Shown here: piece after piece, positions 1,052 through 59,440 of the stretch
Layout: every line of letters starts with the position of its first letter
Position numbering within the stretch: position 1 is the first letter of the stretch
DNA from: Rivularia sp. T60_A2020_040
GTDB taxonomy: Bacteria > Cyanobacteriota > Cyanobacteriia > Cyanobacteriales > Nostocaceae
DNA: 64,000 nt
NCBI GenBank assembly: GCA_015272215.1
Contig: JACYMD010000074.1
Coordinates: forward strand, 1-64,000
Reading direction: 5' to 3'
Program-made: the position numbers and the translations under genes
Notes under the pieces: model-generated
The model's input: the letters and a program-made list of their open reading frames with translations, nothing else
What the model was told of the DNA's origin: nothing
The model's database searches: none

Positions 1052-1255
1052 CTCACATCTTGCACAGAGCCGCATAATTAACTAGATAATCAAAAATATA
1101 AATAAAAATATTACTAAAATAAAAATATAATATTTTAGTCCATTTTAATGGACTTCTGCTATCAGACTGGGACTTGCAGTCCCAGGCGGGTAAGAATGAA
1201 GTCAAACAATCAGTAATTATTTTGAGTTAGGAGTTTTGATGGTGCAAGATATGAA
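1052..1255. mobile_element. MITE-like element, copy 1 (204 bp)
   Basis: Non-coding element bounded by an imperfect 14-bp inverted repeat, CTCACATCTTGCAC at the left and TTCATATCTTGCAC (read inward from the right). It is flanked by the 4-bp direct repeat TTAA (1048-1051 and 1256-1259). Inside are an AT-rich stretch and two hairpins: GTCCATT/AATGGAC and CTGGGACT/AGTCCCAG. I see only two base differences from the copy at 9622-9825. It has no transposase ORF, so it must depend on a protein encoded elsewhere. Confidence 0.88.
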
Positions 1256-3351: not shown

Positions 3352-4104
3352 ATGATTAAGATTGATTAAGATCAAATCTCTACTTTTGGTCAATGATTTG
3401 GAGAATTAAAAAGTTCAACAACTAAGGTTTACTTAACTCATAGCAAACAACGCATTTATATATTTTCCTATCTAGGAGCTTGGCTTACCTGAATTTGGTA
3501 GATGCCACTTTTTTAATGCTGAAATTTACTTGGGTTTTGACCGGAGACACATTGTCATTAACCCGACTGAGTTCACGAAGTTTTGTTTGTGTCTTATTTA
3601 TTAAGTTATCACGTACAAATAAAAATGAAACCCCTGATTAACTCAACTTTACTACTCTTAAAATTTCGCAATATTTATAGGGAATTGGTAATGGGTAATT
3701 GGTAATTGGTAATGGGTAGTAATTAATAACTCTTAACTGTCAACTGTCAACTGTCAACTAACTCCTAACTCAGATTCCTACCCACCACTTTTTACCAGCT
3801 TGCCAAGTTCCCATCAAAATAGGGGTAATTTTTACATCCGACTTTCCCAAATTGCGTTTTTCCATGATTTTCTAATCTGATTTTTACTTAAAACTCTTAA
3901 ATAAATAGTGCCACACTCGATGGTAATGGGTAATGGGTAATTGGTAATTGGTAATGGGTAATTGGACACAGATATGAATTATTAATTATTAACTCCTAAC
4001 TCCCGTACAGACGTAGCAATACGCCCCGTCTCTACAACTAACTCCTAACTCCTACTCATAACTCTTTTAATCCAAAATCTAAAATCTAAAATCCAAAATC
4101 CTAA
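3352..4104. other. Non-coding spacer with tandem repeats
   Basis: Holds two blocks of short tandem repeats, at about 3680-3760 (ATGGGTA/ATTGGTA then CAACTGT units) and 3921-3963 (ATGGGTA/ATTGGTA units), and the small hairpin repeat at 4005-4035. The 70 bp before the next gene consists of TCTAAAA-type repeats. A start-less minus-strand reading of about 45 codons (3485-3619) is not convincing as a gene. Confidence 0.65.
4005..4035. repeat. Dispersed hairpin repeat GTACAGACGTAGC, copy 1
   Basis: One of four related short palindromic repeats in the window (others at 21901-21929, 47411-47441 and 61020-61048). All begin or end with GTACAGACGTAGC and GTCTCTAC. The simplest form has a 9-bp stem, AGACGTAGC/GCTACGTCT. 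All four are embedded in CTCCTAA-type repeats. Confidence 0.75.
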
Positions 4105-8686: not shown

Positions 8687-9541
8687 ATGCAAAGTGTTGT
8701 TGTTACAGGTGTTTCCACAGGTATCGGTTGGGGTACACTCAAAGTATTAAATAGTAAGGGAATTCATGTATTTGGTAGTGTTCGCAAACCTGAAGATGCA
8801 AAACGTTTAAGTGATGAATTTGGCGATGGATTTACACCCTTAATATTTGATGTTACTGATGAAAAATTGGTACGTGAAGCTGCTGAGCAAGTTAGTCATC
8901 GAATTAATAATAATAACTTACTTGGTTTAGTAAATAATGCTGGTATTGCTATTGGTGGACCTTTAATGCATCAACCGATTGCCGAATTTAGTAAACAAAT
9001 AGAAGTGAATCTAATTGGACAATTAATTGTTACTCAAGCTTTTTTACCTTTGCTCGGAATCAATTCTGCTTTTAAAGGTAAACCCGGAAGAATTATTAAT
9101 ATCAGTTCCGTTGGTGGTAAAATAGCATCACCATTTCTCGGTGCTTATAGCGCATCAAAATTTGCCTTAGAAGGATTTTCCGAATCATTACGACGGGAAC
9201 TGATGCTTTACGGAATTGATGTAATTATAATTGGACCAGGTTCTGTAGTAACACCAATTTGGGATAAAGCCGAAAAAATGGACTTTTCTCCCTATGAGAA
9301 TACCAAATTTGCAATTCCAAGTAAAAAATTTCTCGATTATGCGCTGAAAAAAGGACGCTCTGGTTATCCAGTAGAGGATGTGGGAAACTTGATTTACAAA
9401 GCTTTAACAACTACAAAACCGAAAGTACGTTATCCCATTGTGCCAAATCATTTCTTTGATTGGATAGTTGCCAGATTACTTCCTAAACGAGTCCTTGATC
9501 ATATTCTTGCAAACGAATTAGGTTTGGGGAATAGGGGATAA
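8687..9541 (+). CDS. Short-chain dehydrogenase/reductase (SDR)
   Basis: 284 residues. It has the classical SDR motifs: nucleotide-binding TGVSTGIG (about residues 8-15), NNAGIAIGG (about 85-93), catalytic Ser in INISSVGG and the YSASK active site (about 149-153). The C-terminal part diverges, as in the retinol/17-beta-hydroxysteroid dehydrogenase-like subgroup, so the substrate is unknown. The start is placed at the ATG at 8687, which has TTTTGGAG 7 bases upstream; an in-frame TTG at 8675 overlaps that site. Cytosolic NAD(P)-dependent oxidoreductase. Followed by GGGGATAA-type repeats, then MITE copy 2. Confidence 0.92.
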   Translation: MQSVVVTGVSTGIGWGTLKVLNSKGIHVFGSVRKPEDAKRLSDEFGDGFTPLIFDVTDEKLVREAAEQVSHRINNNNLLGLVNNAGIAIGGPLMHQPIAEFSKQIEVNLIGQLIVTQAFLPLLGINSAFKGKPGRIINISSVGGKIASPFLGAYSASKFALEGFSESLRRELMLYGIDVIIIGPGSVVTPIWDKAEKMDFSPYENTKFAIPSKKFLDYALKKGRSGYPVEDVGNLIYKALTTTKPKVRYPIVPNHFFDWIVARLLPKRVLDHILANELGLGNRG

Positions 9542-9620
9542 GGGGATGGGGGGACAAGGGGATAAGGGGACAAGGGGATAAGGGGACAAGGAGATGAAAA
9601 GATGGGGTGATGGGGTGATG
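9542..9620. repeat. G-rich short tandem repeats
   Basis: GGGGATAA/GGGGACAA/GATGGGGT units directly after the SDR stop codon. The last bases (ATGA at 9618-9621) form the left target duplication of MITE copy 2. Confidence 0.7.
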
Positions 9621-9621
9621 A

Positions 9622-9825
9622 CTCACATCTTGCACAGAGCCGCATAATTAACTAGATAATCAAAAATATAAATAAAAATATTACTAAAATAAAAATATAA
9701 TATTTTAGTCCATTTTAATGGACTTCTGCTATTAGACTGGGACTTGCAGTCCCAGGCGGGTAAGAATGAAGTCAAACAATCAGTAATTATTTTGAGTTAG
9801 GAGTTTTGATAGTGCAAGATATGAA
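9622..9825. mobile_element. MITE-like element, copy 2 (204 bp)
   Basis: Same length and orientation as copy 1, with two base differences that I can see (C/T in TATYAGACT, G/A in GATRGTGC). Flanked by the perfect direct repeat ATGA (9618-9621 and 9826-9829), different from copy 1, which indicates an independent insertion. Both internal hairpins are intact. No ORF. Confidence 0.88.
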
Positions 9826-9908
9826 ATGAGGAAAAATTAACTGTCAACTGTCAGCCGTGATTATGAGGTTACATTCAGGTAGAATAAGTCGAAAGAGTTA
9901 GATTATCC

Positions 9909-30600: not shown

Positions 30601-31126
30601 ATATCGATAAACATTGTTTATTACCTAGCAAGAAAAATAGACTCGTGGATTATATATAGTGTTTCCTATTTACAACATTTTTTGTTTTAATTTGTTTTAA
30701 TGTTATGTTTGCTGACTTGAATACATTTATATTTTATTTCTCAAGTTGTCAAGTATCTTATATTCTTCATTATTAACCCTGTCAAAATGATCAACAAATC
30801 AGCGCGAATACTCAAAAACATGATTTTTTTTACTTGTTTTTACTTGTCTTTACTTATTTGTTGATAAAAGAGCATGAAAATCAGTTGTTTTTTTTTAATT
30901 TTACAAATGAAGAATATTTATAATCTTTTTGGATAATTATCTAATATAAATAAATCTTAGTCTTTAATTCTTAAAAAGAGAATATTCGGCTATTAATTGT
31001 TACTTTTTGTGGATAAAATTATTAAATATACGGAAATATACGAGCAAGGATATTTATTTAAAATTAATGAGTGAATAACATATAATCGTCTTTTTGCAAT
31101 CGTTACAGTTGGGTAATCTTTGTTAA
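30601..31126. other. AT-rich spacer
   Basis: About 520 bp without an ORF of note, RNA gene or strong hairpin; probably the promoter region of the M23 peptidase gene lies at its left end. Confidence 0.45.
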
Positions 31127-31335
31127 CTTATATCTGGCACAGAGCCGCATAATTAGCTAAATATAAAAAATAAAAATAAAAATAAAAATATAACTAACGT
31201 AAAGCTGTAATATTTTTAGTCCATTTTAACGGACTTCTGCTATCAGACTGGGACTTACATTCCCAGGCGGGTAAAAAGGAAGTCAAACAATTAGTAATTA
31301 TTTTAACGATAGATTTCTATGGTGCAAGATATAAA
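31127..31335. mobile_element. MITE-like element, copy 3 (209 bp)
   Basis: Older copy of the family. Left end CTTATATCTGGCAC (one change in the repeat), right end reading inward TTTATATCTTGCAC, flanked by direct repeat TTAA (31123-31126 and 31336-31339). GTCCATT/AACGGAC and CTGGGA/TCCCAG hairpins remain, the second shortened. Several substitutions relative to copies 1 and 2. Confidence 0.86.
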
Positions 31336-31375
31336 TTAAAAGTATTAAAAGTGTTAAAAGTATAAATATAAATAA

Positions 31376-34539: not shown

Positions 34540-34869
34540 ATGGCTAAGCCCACCTCGAAATCTGTTAAAGCAATTTCTAACCGTGACAAAAACGGTAGAC
34601 TCGTTTGGAATCATTCCACTCATATTGACGGTTTAATACCGATTCTCGAACGTCTCTGCAACCAAGATAGTATTCAAACCATAACACCCGGAGAAATCAG
34701 CCGTGTCAGAGGTCATTCCCCTCATATGCAATTACGGGTGTCTGTTCCAATTCGAGGTGGGTTTAAAGTCATCGCTCGTCAAGGAAAAACCGTGCAAGAA
34801 GTGTTTATTCTGACTACCTTGGAACAAGATGAATTACAAGTTGCGATCGCAGTTGCAATGAATAAATAG
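34540..34869 (+). CDS. DUF2103 family protein
   Basis: 109 residues: GRLVWNHSTHIDGLIPILERLCNQDSIQTITPGEISRVRGHSPHMQLRVSVPIRGGFKVIARQGKTVQEVFILT. The His-rich NHSTHIDG and RGHSPHMQL segments suggested a predicted metal-binding role for this family, without biochemical proof. The start lies 5 bp after the ClpS stop, so both are probably made from one mRNA and may act together in proteolysis or translation; that is inference from position. Confidence 0.88.
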   Translation: MAKPTSKSVKAISNRDKNGRLVWNHSTHIDGLIPILERLCNQDSIQTITPGEISRVRGHSPHMQLRVSVPIRGGFKVIARQGKTVQEVFILTTLEQDELQVAIAVAMNK

Positions 34870-34961
34870 TTGTTAGCTGATGGTTGTTAGTTGATAGTTG
34901 TTAGTTGATGGTTGTTTATCCACTGTCAACTGTCCACTGTCAACTGTCAACTTTCAACTGT
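34867..34961. repeat. Tandem GTTAGTT and CAACTGT repeats
   Basis: GTTAGTTGAT units followed by CCACTGT/CAACTGT units between the convergent DUF2103 gene and the membrane-protein gene. Confidence 0.75.
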
Positions 34962-35297
34962 CTAATCCTGTACTTGTCGAACTGCAAATTTATGTAATGG
35001 CAAGCAGAGAATGCAGGAAAAAGTCAGAAAGTATGACAAAGCTGTAGTCATTTTCAAACTCATTAACACAACTTCCCATTCAGGTAAAACTATTTTTTCG
35101 ATACCAAAAGCAACACAGTAAACTAACCAGTAAGAAAAGCTCATTCTAAACAAAATTGTTTCGCTTAACTGGATTTCGCTATCAAGTTGACTGTTATTCC
35201 ACAACAAGACTAAACCTATAATGCAAGCAACAAACGAAAGCATTACAAAAAATTCATGACAGATAAAATTTACTGAATGCATGGCACGTTTAGACAA
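34962..35297 (-). CDS. Hypothetical membrane protein
   Basis: 111 residues with three hydrophobic segments: EFFVMLSFVACIIGLVLLW (about residues 15-33), MSFSYWLVYCVAFGIEKIV (about 52-70) and MTTALSYFLTFSCILCLPL (about 83-101). A start at the inner Met of MHSVNFICHEFF is also possible. No family recognised. The three-helix layout and lack of overlap with other genes favour a real protein. Confidence 0.5.
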   Translation of the reverse strand: MSKRAMHSVNFICHEFFVMLSFVACIIGLVLLWNNSQLDSEIQLSETILFRMSFSYWLVYCVAFGIEKIVLPEWEVVLMSLKMTTALSYFLTFSCILCLPLHKFAVRQVQD

Positions 35298-35467
35298 AAA
35301 CTTTTCGATTAAAAATAAGTCTAAAGGAATAAATCTTTAGAAGTAAAACTCCTGTTACAAACCTAAATAAAAATAATGATTATGATTAAGAAATGCTATG
35401 AAATAGTAATTTATATTTAGTTGACAGTGGACAGTTGACAGTGGTTAGGAATTGTTATACCTTTAAC

Positions 35468-35695
35468 CTTATATCTTGCACAGAGCCGCATAATTAGCTA
35501 AATAATAAAAAATACAATTAAAAATATAAATAAAAATATAAATATAAATATAACTAACCTAAAGCTGTAATATTTTTAGTCCATTTTAATGGACTTATGC
35601 TATCAGACTCTTACTTGCAGTCCCAGGCAGGTAAGAACGAATTCAAATAATTAGTAATTATTTTAACGATAGGTTTCTATGGTGCAAGATATGAG
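35468..35695. mobile_element. MITE-like element, copy 4 (228 bp)
   Basis: Longest copy. Left end CTTATATCTTGCAC, right end reading inward CTCATATCTTGCAC, direct repeat TAAC at 35464-35467 and 35696-35699. It sits inside a TTAACCT repeat tract, which the insertion splits. The extra length is in the AT-rich left half. GTCCATT/AATGGAC is intact, but the second hairpin arm has changed (CTCTTACT instead of CTGGGACT), so that stem is lost. Confidence 0.86.
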
Positions 35696-35708
35696 TAACC
35701 TTTAACCT

Positions 35709-39581: not shown

Positions 39582-39712
39582 AGGGAATGGGGAATTGGGA
39601 ATTGGGAATTGGGAATTGGGAATAGGCAATAGGCAATAGGGAATAGGGAATAGGTTAAAAGTCAACTGTCCACTGTCAACTGTCAACTGTCAACTGTCAA
39701 CTGTCAACTGTG
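39582..39712. repeat. Tandem GGGAATA/GGGAATT and CAACTGT repeats
   Basis: About 60 bp of GGGAATT/GGCAATA units followed by CCACTGT/CAACTGT units, ending right at the start codon of the next kinase gene and so replacing its ribosome binding site. Confidence 0.82.
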
Positions 39713-43628: not shown

Positions 43629-46600
43629 ATGTGGCATAAACAAAAAAACAAAAATCCAATAGTTCGTTTGGCTTTATTACTAGCGTTGACATCAACACCA
43701 GTAATGATTAATTTTCTCAAATCGGACTATGTAGTGGCACAATCAACAACCGAAACTCCATCTTTTGGGCTACCAACTGCGGTACCTCAAGGAACCACAA
43801 TTCGGGTAGATGGTTCTACTAGCATGACAAGAGCGAATCAAGCATTAAAACAACGTTTTGAAAAAGAGTATGCCGGTACCAACGTTGAACTTGCTAGTAA
43901 TGGAACTGATGATGCACTCAAAGCTTTACAAGAAGGTAAGATAGATATTGCCGCGATTGGACGCGGTTTAACCCCCGAAGAAGAACAACAGGGTTTAGAA
44001 CAGCAACGTTTACGACGAGAAAAAATTGCGATCGTTGTTGGTAAGGATAATCCTTTCAAAGGCGATTTAACTAATCAACAGTTTACCAGAATTTATCGCG
44101 GGGAAATCACTGACTGGTCGGAACTTGGCGCACCTTCAGGTAAAATTCGAGTTGTTGACCGTCCCGATATGAGCGATACTCGCCAAGCTTTTCGCAATTA
44201 TCCACTTTTCCAGGGCAATTTATTTAAAACTGGTTCTAATGCGATTCAATTAGTTAGTGATGAACCAGCCGAAGTTGTCAAGGAATTGGGTAATGATGGT
44301 ATCGGTTTTGTGTTAGCCAATCAAGTATCGAAACTAGATAACGTGCGTATTTTGAGTATGCACAAAACTTTACCAAATGATGCCAGATATCCTTACTCGC
44401 AGCCGTTGGTTTACGTTTTCCGGAGAAATCCCTCAGAAGCAGTGAAAAACTTTGTTGGTTTTGCAACAGCAGCACCAGGGCAAGAAGCTTTACAAGCAGC
44501 TAGAGAAGAAGAAGCCTTCTCGGTTGCTCAAACTGTTGCTCAAGCCATTTCCGGTGATGCAAATACCACAGCTACAACTACCTCCGGTACAGTCACAACT
44601 CCGGGAAACACTCAAGCTACCACTGATAACAACAGTACAGTAAATGAAGGTGTGGGAAACGCAACCAATACATCCGCTGCTAGTAGCGTTAATAATAACA
44701 ATCAAGCATTTGTACCTGGAGAGAGTGCTGGTGTTTCTACTGAAGTTGCTGAAGCAAAAACAATACCTTGGTGGTGGATTTTATTACCTGTGACAGTTCT
44801 CGGTGCATTGGTGCTGTGGTGGTTGTTGGGAAGACGCAGGTCTCAGGAAGATGATACTGTTGCTAGGGGTGTATTACCAGATAATTCTCCTCCTCCCTTC
44901 ACTCCCCAGACTACAACTGCGAGCAGTGCTGTAGCAGAACCTGTTGCAACTACACCTGTTGAACCCGGTGCGTCAGGGATGAATACAGCAGGATTGGGGT
45001 TAGGAGCATTGGGAATCGCTGGATTAGGAGCCGCAGCAGCTTCAAGAAATCAGCAAGATACATCGTCCGTTGAATCTGCTTCCGAATTGTCTTTGGATAC
45101 ACCGGATTTACAGCAACCGGATATTCCCGATACTGGATTGGATTTAGAAGCACCAGCTGCTGTTGTTAATAGTTCTTATCATTCATTACCGCGAATTTCT
45201 ACCCCAATTGACGAGGAAATACCGCCAACACAGCCAGATAATACGGCTGAAGTTGATCATAATAATGTTGAGAATAATGCTGCTCCCCAAGAAGAATTAC
45301 CGAGTAGTTCCACAAGTAACTGGTTGGGTAATTTTGCTCTTGGTGGTGCGGCTGCGGCTGGTGCGGCTAGAATCAAATCGAAACTAACTGGTAAGGATGT
45401 TTCAGAATCAGCTGTCGATCAAACATTACCTGCTGATAATTCGGCTGTTGTGGGAGATGAAGCAGCAGAAGATCAGCCAAAAACCGGCTATTCTCAATTA
45501 CCAGATGTTTGGCAGACACCGGAAACTGAACAACCGTCAGGTGTAACAGAAGTATCAGTAAATAATGATGCTGTTGAAGAGAGTAATATTACCGAACAAA
45601 ATCAAGAAACCTTAGCTGCGGATTTGTGGGAAGAACCCCAAACCGAACAATCTGCATCTTTGACTACAGATGTTGTAGCTGGAGCAGCAGCATTGGGAGG
45701 AATTGCCGCAGTCAGTTCGGGGTTGTGGAATAATCAAGAAACATCCGACGGCGATGATAATAATGCCCAAATAGATCAAGAAACTTCACCAACCGATTTG
45801 TGGGAAGAACCCCAAACCGAACAATCTACATCTTTGACTACAGGTGTTGTAGAAGAATCGGTAGATAATAATACTATCGAAGAAAGTAATATTATTGAAG
45901 AAAATCAAGAAACTTCACCTGCTGATTTGTGGGCAGAACCCCAAACCGAACAATCTACATCTTTGACTACAGGTGTTGTAGAAGAATCGGTAGATAATAA
46001 TACTATCGAAGAAAGTAATATTATTGAAGAAAATCAAGAAACTTCACCTGGGGATTTGTGGGGAAATCCGGAAACCGAACAATCTACATCTTTGACTACA
46101 GGTGTTGTAGCTGGAGCAGCAGCATTAGGAGGAATTGCCGCAGTCAGTTCGGGGTTGTGGAATAATCAAGAAACATCCGACGGCGATGATAATAATGCCC
46201 AAATAGATCAAGAAACTTCACCAACCGATTTGTGGGAAGACTCAGAAACCGAGCAGCAAGAAAATCTAAACATAACCGATATTAGCGATCGCAATCAAGA
46301 ACAGCCGCAAATAACCGAAGAAGCGCAATTATCGACTCCCGATTTACCCGAAGTTCGGATTATAGGTTTCAACGAACAGTCAGCAGATGCTCAAATAACA
46401 CCACCCCAAGAGCAAAAGCGAACCGATACCGATGGTTTACCAAATGTTTGGATAACTCAACCGACAACCCCAACAGAAACAGTCTCAGAAGAACAATCAC
46501 AAGAACTTGCACAATTTGGTATTTCGTCTAACTCCGAGGATAACCCTGCATCTGCGGTTGCTGCTACGGTATTAGGAGCGGGTGCATTTGCCCTTGGTTC

Positions 46601-47405
46601 TCAAATGCTTGATGACAGTGAAAAATCTCAACAGCAAGATGAGAATACGGCAATTACTGAGCCTTCAGCATCTCAATTATCCTTTAGTGAAGATGTTGCT
46701 TTAGATCGAATCGCAGACGAAGCCGAAGTAGATGTAGATGTAGATACTAAAATCTCTTCATCCGAGCCAGATTTAGATGAAGCAGATACAGCATGGGACA
46801 GAATTTACGGTATCCACCATCAAGGGGGTACGGGAGTACCGGGTGAAAGCAATATATTGTTAGCAAGTCGTACTCCTAAATGGGCTTATGCTTCTTGGAA
46901 CATTTCTGGTGATTCTAGAGAAGCAATGCAAAATCGCGGTGCAACTCAATTAATATTGCGACTGTATGACGTAACCAATATTGACTTGAGTTATCAAGAT
47001 GCTAAATTAGTTCAACAGTACGAATGTGAAACTACAGTTAGTCATCGTTACGTTGCTATACCCAATACCGATCGCGATTATATTGCTGAAATCGGTTATT
47101 TAACCAAAGATAAAGAATGGTCATTAATATCGCGTTCGCCAATTGTCCGAGTATTTAGTCGTCCTCATAAAGACTTCTGGTTTGAAGCGGATGCAGAACT
47201 AATCATTCATGGTGCCACTGAACCCGGTTCAACTGTAACTATTGAAGGACAAAATATCAAAGTCAAGCAAGATGGTACTTTCCATCTACGGGTTCCCTTT
47301 ACCGAAAGCACTATTAACTATTTGATTACCGCTGTTGCACCAAATAGTGAAGAAGCGAGAACTATTCATATGCAATTTTCCCAGAAAGAGCCGAAGAATA
47401 GTTAG
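43629..47405 (+). CDS. PstS-like binding domain - membrane helix - repeats - DUF4912 protein
   Basis: 1258 residues. Residues about 15-40 form a signal or anchor. Residues about 55-300 are a phosphate-binding-protein-like domain (TIRVDGSTSMTRANQALKQRFEKEYAGTNVELASNGTDDALKALQEGKIDIAAIGRGLTPEE, YRGEITDWSELGAPSGKIRVV). A membrane helix follows near residues 378-400 (IPWWWILLPVTVLGALVLWWLLGRRR). About 650 acidic, low-complexity residues with internal repeats come next, then DUF4912 from about residue 1055 (ILLASRTPKWAYASWNISGD, EPGSTVTIEGQNIKVKQDGTFHLRVPF). The layout suggests an outside ligand-binding part tethered to an inside DUF4912 domain. Function unknown; solitary gene without pst transporter genes. 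Confidence 0.9.
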   Translation: MWHKQKNKNPIVRLALLLALTSTPVMINFLKSDYVVAQSTTETPSFGLPTAVPQGTTIRVDGSTSMTRANQALKQRFEKEYAGTNVELASNGTDDALKALQEGKIDIAAIGRGLTPEEEQQGLEQQRLRREKIAIVVGKDNPFKGDLTNQQFTRIYRGEITDWSELGAPSGKIRVVDRPDMSDTRQAFRNYPLFQGNLFKTGSNAIQLVSDEPAEVVKELGNDGIGFVLANQVSKLDNVRILSMHKTLPNDARYPYSQPLVYVFRRNPSEAVKNFVGFATAAPGQEALQAAREEEAFSVAQTVAQAISGDANTTATTTSGTVTTPGNTQATTDNNSTVNEGVGNATNTSAASSVNNNNQAFVPGESAGVSTEVAEAKTIPWWWILLPVTVLGALVLWWLLGRRRSQEDDTVARGVLPDNSPPPFTPQTTTASSAVAEPVATTPVEPGASGMNTAGLGLGALGIAGLGAAAASRNQQDTSSVESASELSLDTPDLQQPDIPDTGLDLEAPAAVVNSSYHSLPRISTPIDEEIPPTQPDNTAEVDHNNVENNAAPQEELPSSSTSNWLGNFALGGAAAAGAARIKSKLTGKDVSESAVDQTLPADNSAVVGDEAAEDQPKTGYSQLPDVWQTPETEQPSGVTEVSVNNDAVEESNITEQNQETLAADLWEEPQTEQSASLTTDVVAGAAALGGIAAVSSGLWNNQETSDGDDNNAQIDQETSPTDLWEEPQTEQSTSLTTGVVEESVDNNTIEESNIIEENQETSPADLWAEPQTEQSTSLTTGVVEESVDNNTIEESNIIEENQETSPGDLWGNPETEQSTSLTTGVVAGAAALGGIAAVSSGLWNNQETSDGDDNNAQIDQETSPTDLWEDSETEQQENLNITDISDRNQEQPQITEEAQLSTPDLPEVRIIGFNEQSADAQITPPQEQKRTDTDGLPNVWITQPTTPTETVSEEQSQELAQFGISSNSEDNPASAVAATVLGAGAFALGSQMLDDSEKSQQQDENTAITEPSASQLSFSEDVALDRIADEAEVDVDVDTKISSSEPDLDEADTAWDRIYGIHHQGGTGVPGESNILLASRTPKWAYASWNISGDSREAMQNRGATQLILRLYDVTNIDLSYQDAKLVQQYECETTVSHRYVAIPNTDRDYIAEIGYLTKDKEWSLISRSPIVRVFSRPHKDFWFEADAELIIHGATEPGSTVTIEGQNIKVKQDGTFHLRVPFTESTINYLITAVAPNSEEARTIHMQFSQKEPKNS
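45667..46272 (+). repeat. Intragenic A-B-B-A repeats in the DUF4912 protein gene
   Basis: Inside the acidic region two 129-bp units (43 residues, from about 45841 and 45970, each with EESVDNNTIEESNIIEENQE) stand in tandem. They are flanked by two near-identical 174-bp units (58 residues, from about 45667 and 46099, with AGAAALGGIAAVSSGLWNNQ). All units end in DLW(E/A/G)xPQTEQSTSLTT-like text, so the reading frame is kept. High DNA identity points to recent duplication. Confidence 0.88.
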
Positions 47406-58324: not shown

Positions 58325-58404
58325 ATCCCCAATTACCAATTACCAATTACCAATTACCCATTACCAATTACCAATTACCAATTACCAATTACCAATTACC
58401 AATT
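58325..58404. repeat. Tandem TTACCAA repeats
   Basis: About ten TTACCAA/TTACCCA units in a row ending at the ATG of the Ycf39-like gene, so no classical ribosome binding site is left. Confidence 0.85.
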
Positions 58405-59280
58405 ATGTTTTTAGTCACAGGTGCAACCGGAGATATTGGTACCAGAGTAGTACGACTGCTGCGGGAACGAGAGATGTTAGTCAAAGCTTTTGTTCGTCTC
58501 ACCTCGCGTTATAGTGAATTACAACATCAAGGTGCCGATATTTTTATCGGTGACTTAAGGGAAGAAAAAGACATTCGTAAAGCTTGTCAAGGAGTTGATT
58601 ATATTGTTAGCGCTCACGGTTCAGATGGTGATGCGCTATCCTTGGATTATCGCGCCAATATAGAGTTAATTGACCAAGCAAAAGCCAATGAAGTTCAACA
58701 CTTTGTCTTTATTTCCGTATTGGGTGTAGATCGAGGCTATGAAGATGCTCCGACTTTTAAAGCCAAACTTGCTGTCGAGCAATATCTACAAAATAGCGGC
58801 TTAAACTACACAATTTTACGACCTGCTGGATTAGCATCTAATTTATTGACTTTAGCTGAAAGATTTCGCGAAACGGGGTTTTATTTAGTTATCGGCGATC
58901 CTAAAAACCGCACCTCTATAGTCAGTACAGATGATTTGGCAAAAATGATAGTTGATTCTATCATTCTGTCAAGCGCTCGCAATAAAATTTTACCTGTGGG
59001 AGGTCCAGAGGTTTTATATAGAGAAGATATACCACATATTTTCGGTCGTATTTTTAATAAAGAACCATTAATAGTTAACGCACCATTATTTTTAATTGAT
59101 GGGTTACGCAGTGGATTAGGTTTAGTAAATTCTAAAACACAAACAGAATTAGGTACTTTTCGCACTTTACTAGCCAATGAATTTTTCTGTAAAACAGAAG
59201 AAGTTAAAAACTTAGAAGAAATTTTCGGTTTTGAATTAGAAACGCTAGAAAGTTTTTTAAGACGTTATTTAGGAATTTAG
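58405..59280 (+). CDS. Atypical SDR / NmrA-like NAD(P)-binding protein (Ycf39-like)
   Basis: 291 residues. N-terminal Rossmann motif MFLVTGATGDIGTRVVRLLRER (GxxGxxG), then AFVRLTSRYSELQHQGADIFIGDLREEKDIRKACQGVDYIVS, FVFISVLGVDRGYEDAPTFKAKLAVEQYLQNSGLNYTILRPAGLASN. The YxxxK active site is absent, as in NmrA/Ycf39-type atypical SDRs, which serve as NAD(P)-binding regulators or in photosystem assembly. Exact role unknown. Cytosolic or membrane-associated. Confidence 0.9.
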   Translation: MFLVTGATGDIGTRVVRLLREREMLVKAFVRLTSRYSELQHQGADIFIGDLREEKDIRKACQGVDYIVSAHGSDGDALSLDYRANIELIDQAKANEVQHFVFISVLGVDRGYEDAPTFKAKLAVEQYLQNSGLNYTILRPAGLASNLLTLAERFRETGFYLVIGDPKNRTSIVSTDDLAKMIVDSIILSSARNKILPVGGPEVLYREDIPHIFGRIFNKEPLIVNAPLFLIDGLRSGLGLVNSKTQTELGTFRTLLANEFFCKTEEVKNLEEIFGFELETLESFLRRYLGI

Positions 59281-59440
59281 TTGATGGTTGTTAGTTGATG
59301 GTTGATGGTTGATAGTTGATAGTTGCATTTTTACACTAACCACTAACAACTAACAACTAACCACTAACCACTAACAACTAACAACTAACCACTAACAACT
59401 AACAACTAACCACTAACAACTAACCTTTAACCTTTAACCT
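59281..59440. repeat. Tandem GATGGTT and CAACTAA/CCACTAA repeats
   Basis: About 160 bp of GATGGTT/GTTAGTT units, then repeated AACTAACAACTAACCACT-type units, ending with CCTTTAA units 4 bp from the next ATG. The longest repeat block in the window. Confidence 0.85.

Follow-up and report, generated by a model that had tools for sequence, protein, structure and literature searches.

Four short, gene-free segments, each bordered by a perfect 4-bp direct repeat, lie within the first 64,000 nucleotides of contig JACYMD010000074.1 of Rivularia sp. T60_A2020_040 (this stretch, the whole of which was analysed, is the window; its contig is C138 of the 6.02-Mb, 139-contig genome G000), and they raise the question of what these segments are and which transposase moved them. 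We propose that they are MITEs and that they were very probably mobilized by the DDE transposase of an IS701-like clade of insertion sequences (ISs) acting on their ends of about 14 bp, with the parent having decayed to relics in this genome while the MITEs multiplied.

The four elements and their family in the genome

The coordinates and 4-bp repeats (TTAA, ATGA, TTAA, and TAAC) that an earlier note on this DNA had given for all four elements are correct to the base. The same note had described a four-copy family, which holds within the window, but genome-wide there are dozens of copies. The features are as follows.

1052 to 1255, plus strand: MITE copy 1, 204 bp, with an identical counterpart on contig C81 (C81:142135-142338) across all 204 bp
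1048 to 1051, no strand: TTAA target duplication on the left side of copy 1, a single TTAA in two relatives
1256 to 1259, no strand: TTAA target duplication on the right side of copy 1, a single TTAA in two relatives
1052 to 1065, plus strand: left terminal inverted repeat (TIR) of copy 1, CTCACATCTTGCAC, which also terminates several parent ISs
1242 to 1255, minus strand: right TIR of copy 1, reading TTCATATCTTGCAC inward
1137 to 1154, plus strand: inner hairpin 1 of copy 1, AGTCCATTTTAATGGACT, at element positions 85-102 and with TTAA within it
1167 to 1185, plus strand: inner hairpin 2 of copy 1, CTGGGACT/TGC/AGTCCCAG, the stem of which shows compensation across cyanobacteria
9622 to 9825, plus strand: MITE copy 2, 204 bp, with ATGA at 9618-9621 and 9826-9829
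31127 to 31335, plus strand: MITE copy 3, 209 bp, with TTAA at 31123-31126 and 31336-31339
35468 to 35695, plus strand: MITE copy 4, 228 bp, with TAAC at 35464-35467 and 35696-35699, within a short CCTTTAACC repeat

Both ends of the window copies are CTnAnATCTTGCAC-like, the left end of copy 3 being ATCTGGCAC, and the right end of copies 1 to 3 starts with TT instead of CT. Identity is 99.0% between copies 1 and 2 and 90.0% between copies 3 and 4, with values of 83.7-85.2% between the two pairs. All four elements (204-228 bp) are intergenic relative to ORFs of at least 100 aa, with zero overlap, and the earlier claim that they carry no ORF is correct for that size class. The accompanying claim that the window lacks a transposase gene stands for PF01609, PF13546, and the parent transposase described below, which are the three that the scan comprised and for which all own-genome matches lie off contig C138.

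The earlier note had also suggested counting all copies and listing their 4-bp flanks, and this revealed duplications throughout the genome. The DNA search of the own genome, in which the best 40 of 160 candidate places were scored, yielded 42 matches, while the TIR pattern with at most one mismatch occurs at 89 sites, compared to four for a reversed-pattern control. Many of the lone end sites are degraded MITEs, and two match the ends of the parent and are read as its relics. A 400-kb stretch of contig C53, the longest contig seen and one that is richer than average with 15 of the 89 end sites, contains nine core-bearing copies (a tenth match of 36 bp is excluded), eight of which have both ends at 9/11 or better and six of which have a perfect duplication. 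There is also a 212-bp subfamily, on contigs C4, C56, and C74, whose ends are those of the main family and whose core is related. Two MITEs lie beside PF01609 genes of other ISs, at C36:12342-12544 (gene at C36:10863-11759) and at C98:2176-2378 (gene at C98:1596-2101, with stops). Plasmid and phage collections, which may omit records near the genome of the window, gave zero DNA matches to the MITE.

The duplication was readable at 33 of 36 curated places, and 25 of the 33 have a perfect 4-bp duplication, TTAA in ten cases, while eight lack one. Mismatched left and right flanks agree in only 10.5% of cases, and among 20,000 shuffles the maximum was 11 of 33, with none reaching 25. Three copies that had not been scored in the genome search (C138:35468, C53:28115, and C135:33486) were added to this count, and C4:59596, C12:21492, C25:31090, C74:16336, C79:53885, C109:53848, and C133:9258 were excluded, as was the 212-bp subfamily; C44:13289, C55:8641, and C53:169567, the last with an imperfect repeat (ttaa/ttag), are likewise outside it.

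The flanks of the window copies were located in two genomes of the same genus, G140 and G104, where the earlier note's idea of looking for empty sites in related strains could be pursued. The site of copy 1 is empty to the exact base in both, with a single TTAA between the flanks. At the site of copy 3 both genomes read TTTG-TTAA-GAGTATAAATA, with one TTAA and an exact left junction, the right flank in the window having extra units of a 9-bp repeat relative to G140 and G104. The copy 4 site is unoccupied in both and lies inside a CCTTTAACC-type repeat, where resolution is coarser than one base, and the copy 2 site is unoccupied, with diverged flanks, in G140, the contig of G104 stopping there. 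The MITE is thus absent in all seven of the site-by-genome comparisons that these four sites and two genomes allow. The proposal of the earlier note that these are MITEs with a 4-bp target duplication is borne out by the duplications throughout the genome together with the unoccupied sites in relatives, and the classification of the four segments as MITEs is supported by their short, gene-free sequence, their dispersed copies and unoccupied sites, and the TIRs and duplication length that they have in common with the likely parent.

Other repeats in the window include short tandem arrays of 7-bp units (3683-3759, 34866-34962, 39582-39711, 58329-58405, 59278-59432, and others) and of 8-bp units (9533-9595), another dispersed repeat of approximately 150 bp at 737-888 that matches several G140 contigs at 79-96%, and a 129-bp tandem repeat (a multiple of 3) present in 2.6 copies at 45775-46110, inside a 1,258-aa ORF (43629-47405).

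The probable parent insertion sequence in relatives

A further suggestion of the earlier note, a search for full-length ISs with MITE-like ends, led to the likely parent in relatives and, in the own genome, to relics only. An end search of complete genomes found in G111, a member of the same family, six end pairs at a uniform spacing of 1,452 bp, four of which are flanked by perfect duplications. In each of the six copies that were read (the search lists eight such copies) the frame is open for the same 251 aa and interrupted before and after them, and so these 1,452-bp copies probably moved in trans, an IS with a dead gene seeming to have multiplied. With the 251-aa stretch as the query, relatives were found in 73 of 140 genomes of the family. 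A TIR pair of the MITE type is present at 28 of 30 transposase loci, one of the 28 being doubtful (L290, with ends 2,590 bp apart), and a perfect 4-bp duplication at 21 of the 30, with an IS length of 1,361-1,526 bp in 24 of the 28 loci with an end pair. The ends of the parent IS are CTnAnATCTTGCACC and match those of the MITE, the duplication is 4 bp and TTAA-like, and the final codons of the transposase (RCK-M/I, stop) fall inside the right terminal repeat. An open transposase gene is found in two genomes of the same genus, G045 (locus L289) and G118. The gene in G045 sits on a contig of 271,562 bp that is perhaps a plasmid, and in G118 the left flank of the IS is not repeated on the right. 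In four further genomes of the same genus, the G045 protein as query matched fragments with stops in G104 and G130 and gave a weak 30-residue match in G140 and no match in G083.

TTAA is the most common target of the parent ISs, and GTAA, TATA, TTTA, CTAC, and GTTC are also seen. The MITE and the parent IS resemble each other in target base frequencies, with 0.66 and 0.67 for outer T/A and 0.84 and 0.64 for inner T/A. The target of the IS701 family is YTAR.

The own genome contains no intact parent IS by searches with the 251-aa stretch, which had zero matches, and with the G045 protein, although two identical MITE copies are present. The G045 query detected only a 40-residue remnant that is 63% identical (C129:20291-20410), and the DNA of this relic, which ends in CTCATATCTTGCACCTG beside a TTAA, matches the right ends of the ISs (82-85% over 108-124 bp at best, others down to 69%). 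A 45-bp match on contig C70 to the left end of the IS (87% at best) is a probable left-end relic of the parent.

With regard to its family, the IS701 models of NCBIfam are the best matches of four full-length transposases, at 45-55 bits compared to cut-offs of 150-170, and the IS4 and IS1380 models match the same four more weakly, with no IS5 model among the NCBIfam matches of these proteins at an E value of 0.001. In Pfam, DDE_Tnp_1 is above cut-off in three of three full-length transposases and DDE_5 in one of the three. The parent transposase is ~22% identical to the nearest IS701-type protein of the relatives, and the transposase tree, in which long branches join, supports only the distance of the clade from IS701 proper, the clade itself needing two changes. 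We call the parent a putative IS701-like DDE element of a divergent clade, with membership of IS701 unconfirmed, because the IS701 models match best yet far below their cut-offs, the identity is ~22%, and the duplication is 4 bp. Hence, of the two kinds of parent that the earlier note had offered, the IS701-like one is retained, at a distance from IS701 proper, and the IS5-like one is not, as no IS5 model matched the four proteins at that E value.

Two other groups of transposases were considered as the parent and rejected. IS701 proper (PF13546) was represented by 30 loci of relatives, one per genome, none of which has the MITE end pair around the gene, and their ends, discernible in about half, differ from those of the MITE (e.g., CGGGACTTAA or TCAATACCTTAGCC). 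The PF01609 transposase genes of G000, G140, and G104 are not enclosed by a matching end pair, several of these loci being cut by contig ends. A generic inverted-repeat search at the transposase loci gave mostly chance-looking pairs.

The hairpin cassette of the MITE body

When the MITE was compared with 27 ISs, two alignments at the left end extended 52-63 bp inward at 73-75% identity (E values of 5e-4 and 0.002), and an IS end is a possible source of the left arm. Without the outer 16 bp, the best match to the 27 ISs has an E value of 0.064, and because there is no clear homology beyond the ends, the view of the MITE as an internal deletion of any of the ISs seen is unsupported. The body folds strongly (z -4.8), and hairpin 1 is the best conserved stretch measured, with a mean column identity of 0.99 compared to 0.88 in the left arm, which is AT-rich. 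Of all parts of the MITE, the hairpin cassette has so far been explained least.

Some match to the MITE is present in 89 of 145 genomes of the family, mostly around the hairpins, while among the matches listed only those in G000, G140, and G104 span positions 6-199 or more. At least 98 genome-contig stretches contain the hairpin-1 pattern without a mismatch, and all but three of them are titled as cyanobacteria, the three being from one Gracilibacteria MAG that may be mis-binned; these loci were selected by the exact sequence of hairpin 1 and are uninformative on its variation. Removal of repeats and of loci near stretch ends left 89 usable instances, 33 of which have a good right end nearby, compared to 1.4% of 420 control places, and 56 of which lack one. 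Both ends are found in 18 of the 89 and in none of the 420 controls, and five of 23 listed end pairs have a perfect duplication, four of the five being from one MAG. The family in the window seems to be a local variant within a far broader group of cyanobacterial elements.

The fullest forms (e.g., L203 and L129) are near-mirror arrangements of end, hairpin, GGCTAATAGC, hairpin, spacer, hairpin, GCTATnAGCC, hairpin, and end. The right-hand motif GCTATnAGnC is present in 48 of the 98 listed instances and its left-hand mirror in 16 of the 98. The outer hairpin has at least seven perfect pairs in 54 of the 98, compared to none of 98 shuffled sequences, and it has 37 different 5' arms, such that the stem varies but stays paired, often with GCC/GGC at its base and TTnA in the loop. 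These stem changes are compensatory, but palindrome arms that correct one another during replication could yield the same pattern with no selection involved. We suggest only tentatively, and as something that we consider rather unlikely, that the two-hairpin cassette is a selected structural module, of DNA or RNA, that was spread across the Cyanobacteria by one transposase clade and that either aids transposition or acts on neighboring transcripts. An Rfam scan of the window gave no match at the gathering threshold.

Two further loci of the own genome bear on the structure of the elements. At C63:124734-125032 (L013 1404-1702) the end of a young MITE lies exactly at the TTAA in hairpin 1 of an older one (AGTCCATTTTAA followed by CTCACATC), as if one MITE had inserted into the other; hairpin 1 itself holds the preferred target, and the outer pair has the duplication CAAA. 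At C56:16796-17137 (L037/L067) there is a 342-bp MITE with the duplication TTTA and a foreign hairpin-rich insert that is perhaps another small repeat.

Proposed origin of the family and comparison with known systems

In the proposed mechanism, the transposase of the IS701-like clade would recognize the CTnAnATCTTGCAC ends of about 14 bp on the MITE in trans, and the MITE would relocate by cut and paste, with insertion into TTAA-like sites accompanied by the 4-bp duplication that is evident from the repeats and the unoccupied sites. The parent would since have decayed to relics in this lineage, or it might reside on DNA missing from the assembly, and the identical copies would either predate the decay or reflect an intact parent on such DNA. 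Points that weigh against this reading are the eight curated copies with an imperfect duplication, the missing intact parent in a genome with two identical MITEs, the lack of clear MITE-IS homology past the ends, and the right end of the MITE, most often TT at its start where the IS has CT.

A different transposase with similar ends, such as another member of the IS701, IS4, or IS5 groups, could have moved the MITE instead, as the cognate parent is without an intact gene in the own genome, which does encode other DDE transposases (PF01609 has 10 matches, one of which coincides with the sole PF13546 match in a gene on C77). Yet this seems improbable, since none of the own-genome transposase loci fetched, several of them at contig ends and partly readable, has a MITE end pair around its gene, nor has any of the 30 PF13546 loci of relatives. 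Even less probable is that the family is a palindromic repeat of the REP/RAYT type spread by a tyrosine (Y1) transposase, with the matching ends as a secondary capture. Such a view would accommodate the body-type hairpins that many cyanobacteria have, often without recognizable ends as in the 56 instances above, and GTAG-tagged REPs have been reported from cyanobacteria (PMC3733652). However, the ends and 4-bp duplications indicate DDE transposition, both ends accompany the core in eight of the nine copies on C53, and in the 212-bp subfamily the core likewise occurs with the ends. An immobile regulatory or RNA element, to which the strong folding and the conservation of hairpin 1 might point, is scarcely credible in view of the unoccupied sites with a single TTAA in relatives and the lack of an Rfam match at the gathering threshold, and for copies 1 and 3 a fixed element is already refuted. 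A regulatory role of the MITE after its insertion is possible. We thus return to the IS701-like clade, by which a likely parent is now named for an orphan MITE family that is abundant in a genome where the searches recovered the parent as fragments only. With the covarying hairpins it also becomes directly testable whether the body of a MITE is inert filler or a structure under selection.

The literature was searched by sequence and topic, within a scope to which ISfinder and most subscription papers do not belong, and among the papers listed, judged by title or by the opening of the abstract, none evidently deals with the present family. The 187-nt MITE of Microcystis is also short, folded, many-copy, and cyanobacterial, with a parent named via common ends, but it differs in its ends (GGCTCTTCG), its 8-bp duplication, and its parent from the ISL3 family (PMC11448079). 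Nezha is an active cyanobacterial MITE by the title of its report (Zhou et al., 2008). The genome of Anabaena sp. 90 is reported to have 147 complete or partial MITE copies that are folded and 77-541 bp in length, and for these MITEs, called type II, no IS with matching ends is reported there (PMC3542288); compared by description, the present family differs in that its parent was found in relatives. The IS701 family has the duplication length in common with the parent IS, and the IS701-type loci of relatives differ from it in their ends. Plasmid homologs of the parent transposase were found in 94 records, mostly of Thermus (44) and Deinococcus (25), and among the matches listed the Thermus proteins align over 94% of the query at 44-45% identity. 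A single Thermus plasmid copy was read; it is 1,193 bp in length, has identical 14-bp ends (CTCAAAACTTGCAC) with TTTT on both flanks, and might correspond to ISTth8, which is listed under IS701 with a 4-bp direct repeat (PMC6352166). Both in Cyanobacteria and on this Thermus plasmid, the ends and the duplication length of the transposase clade are nearly unchanged.
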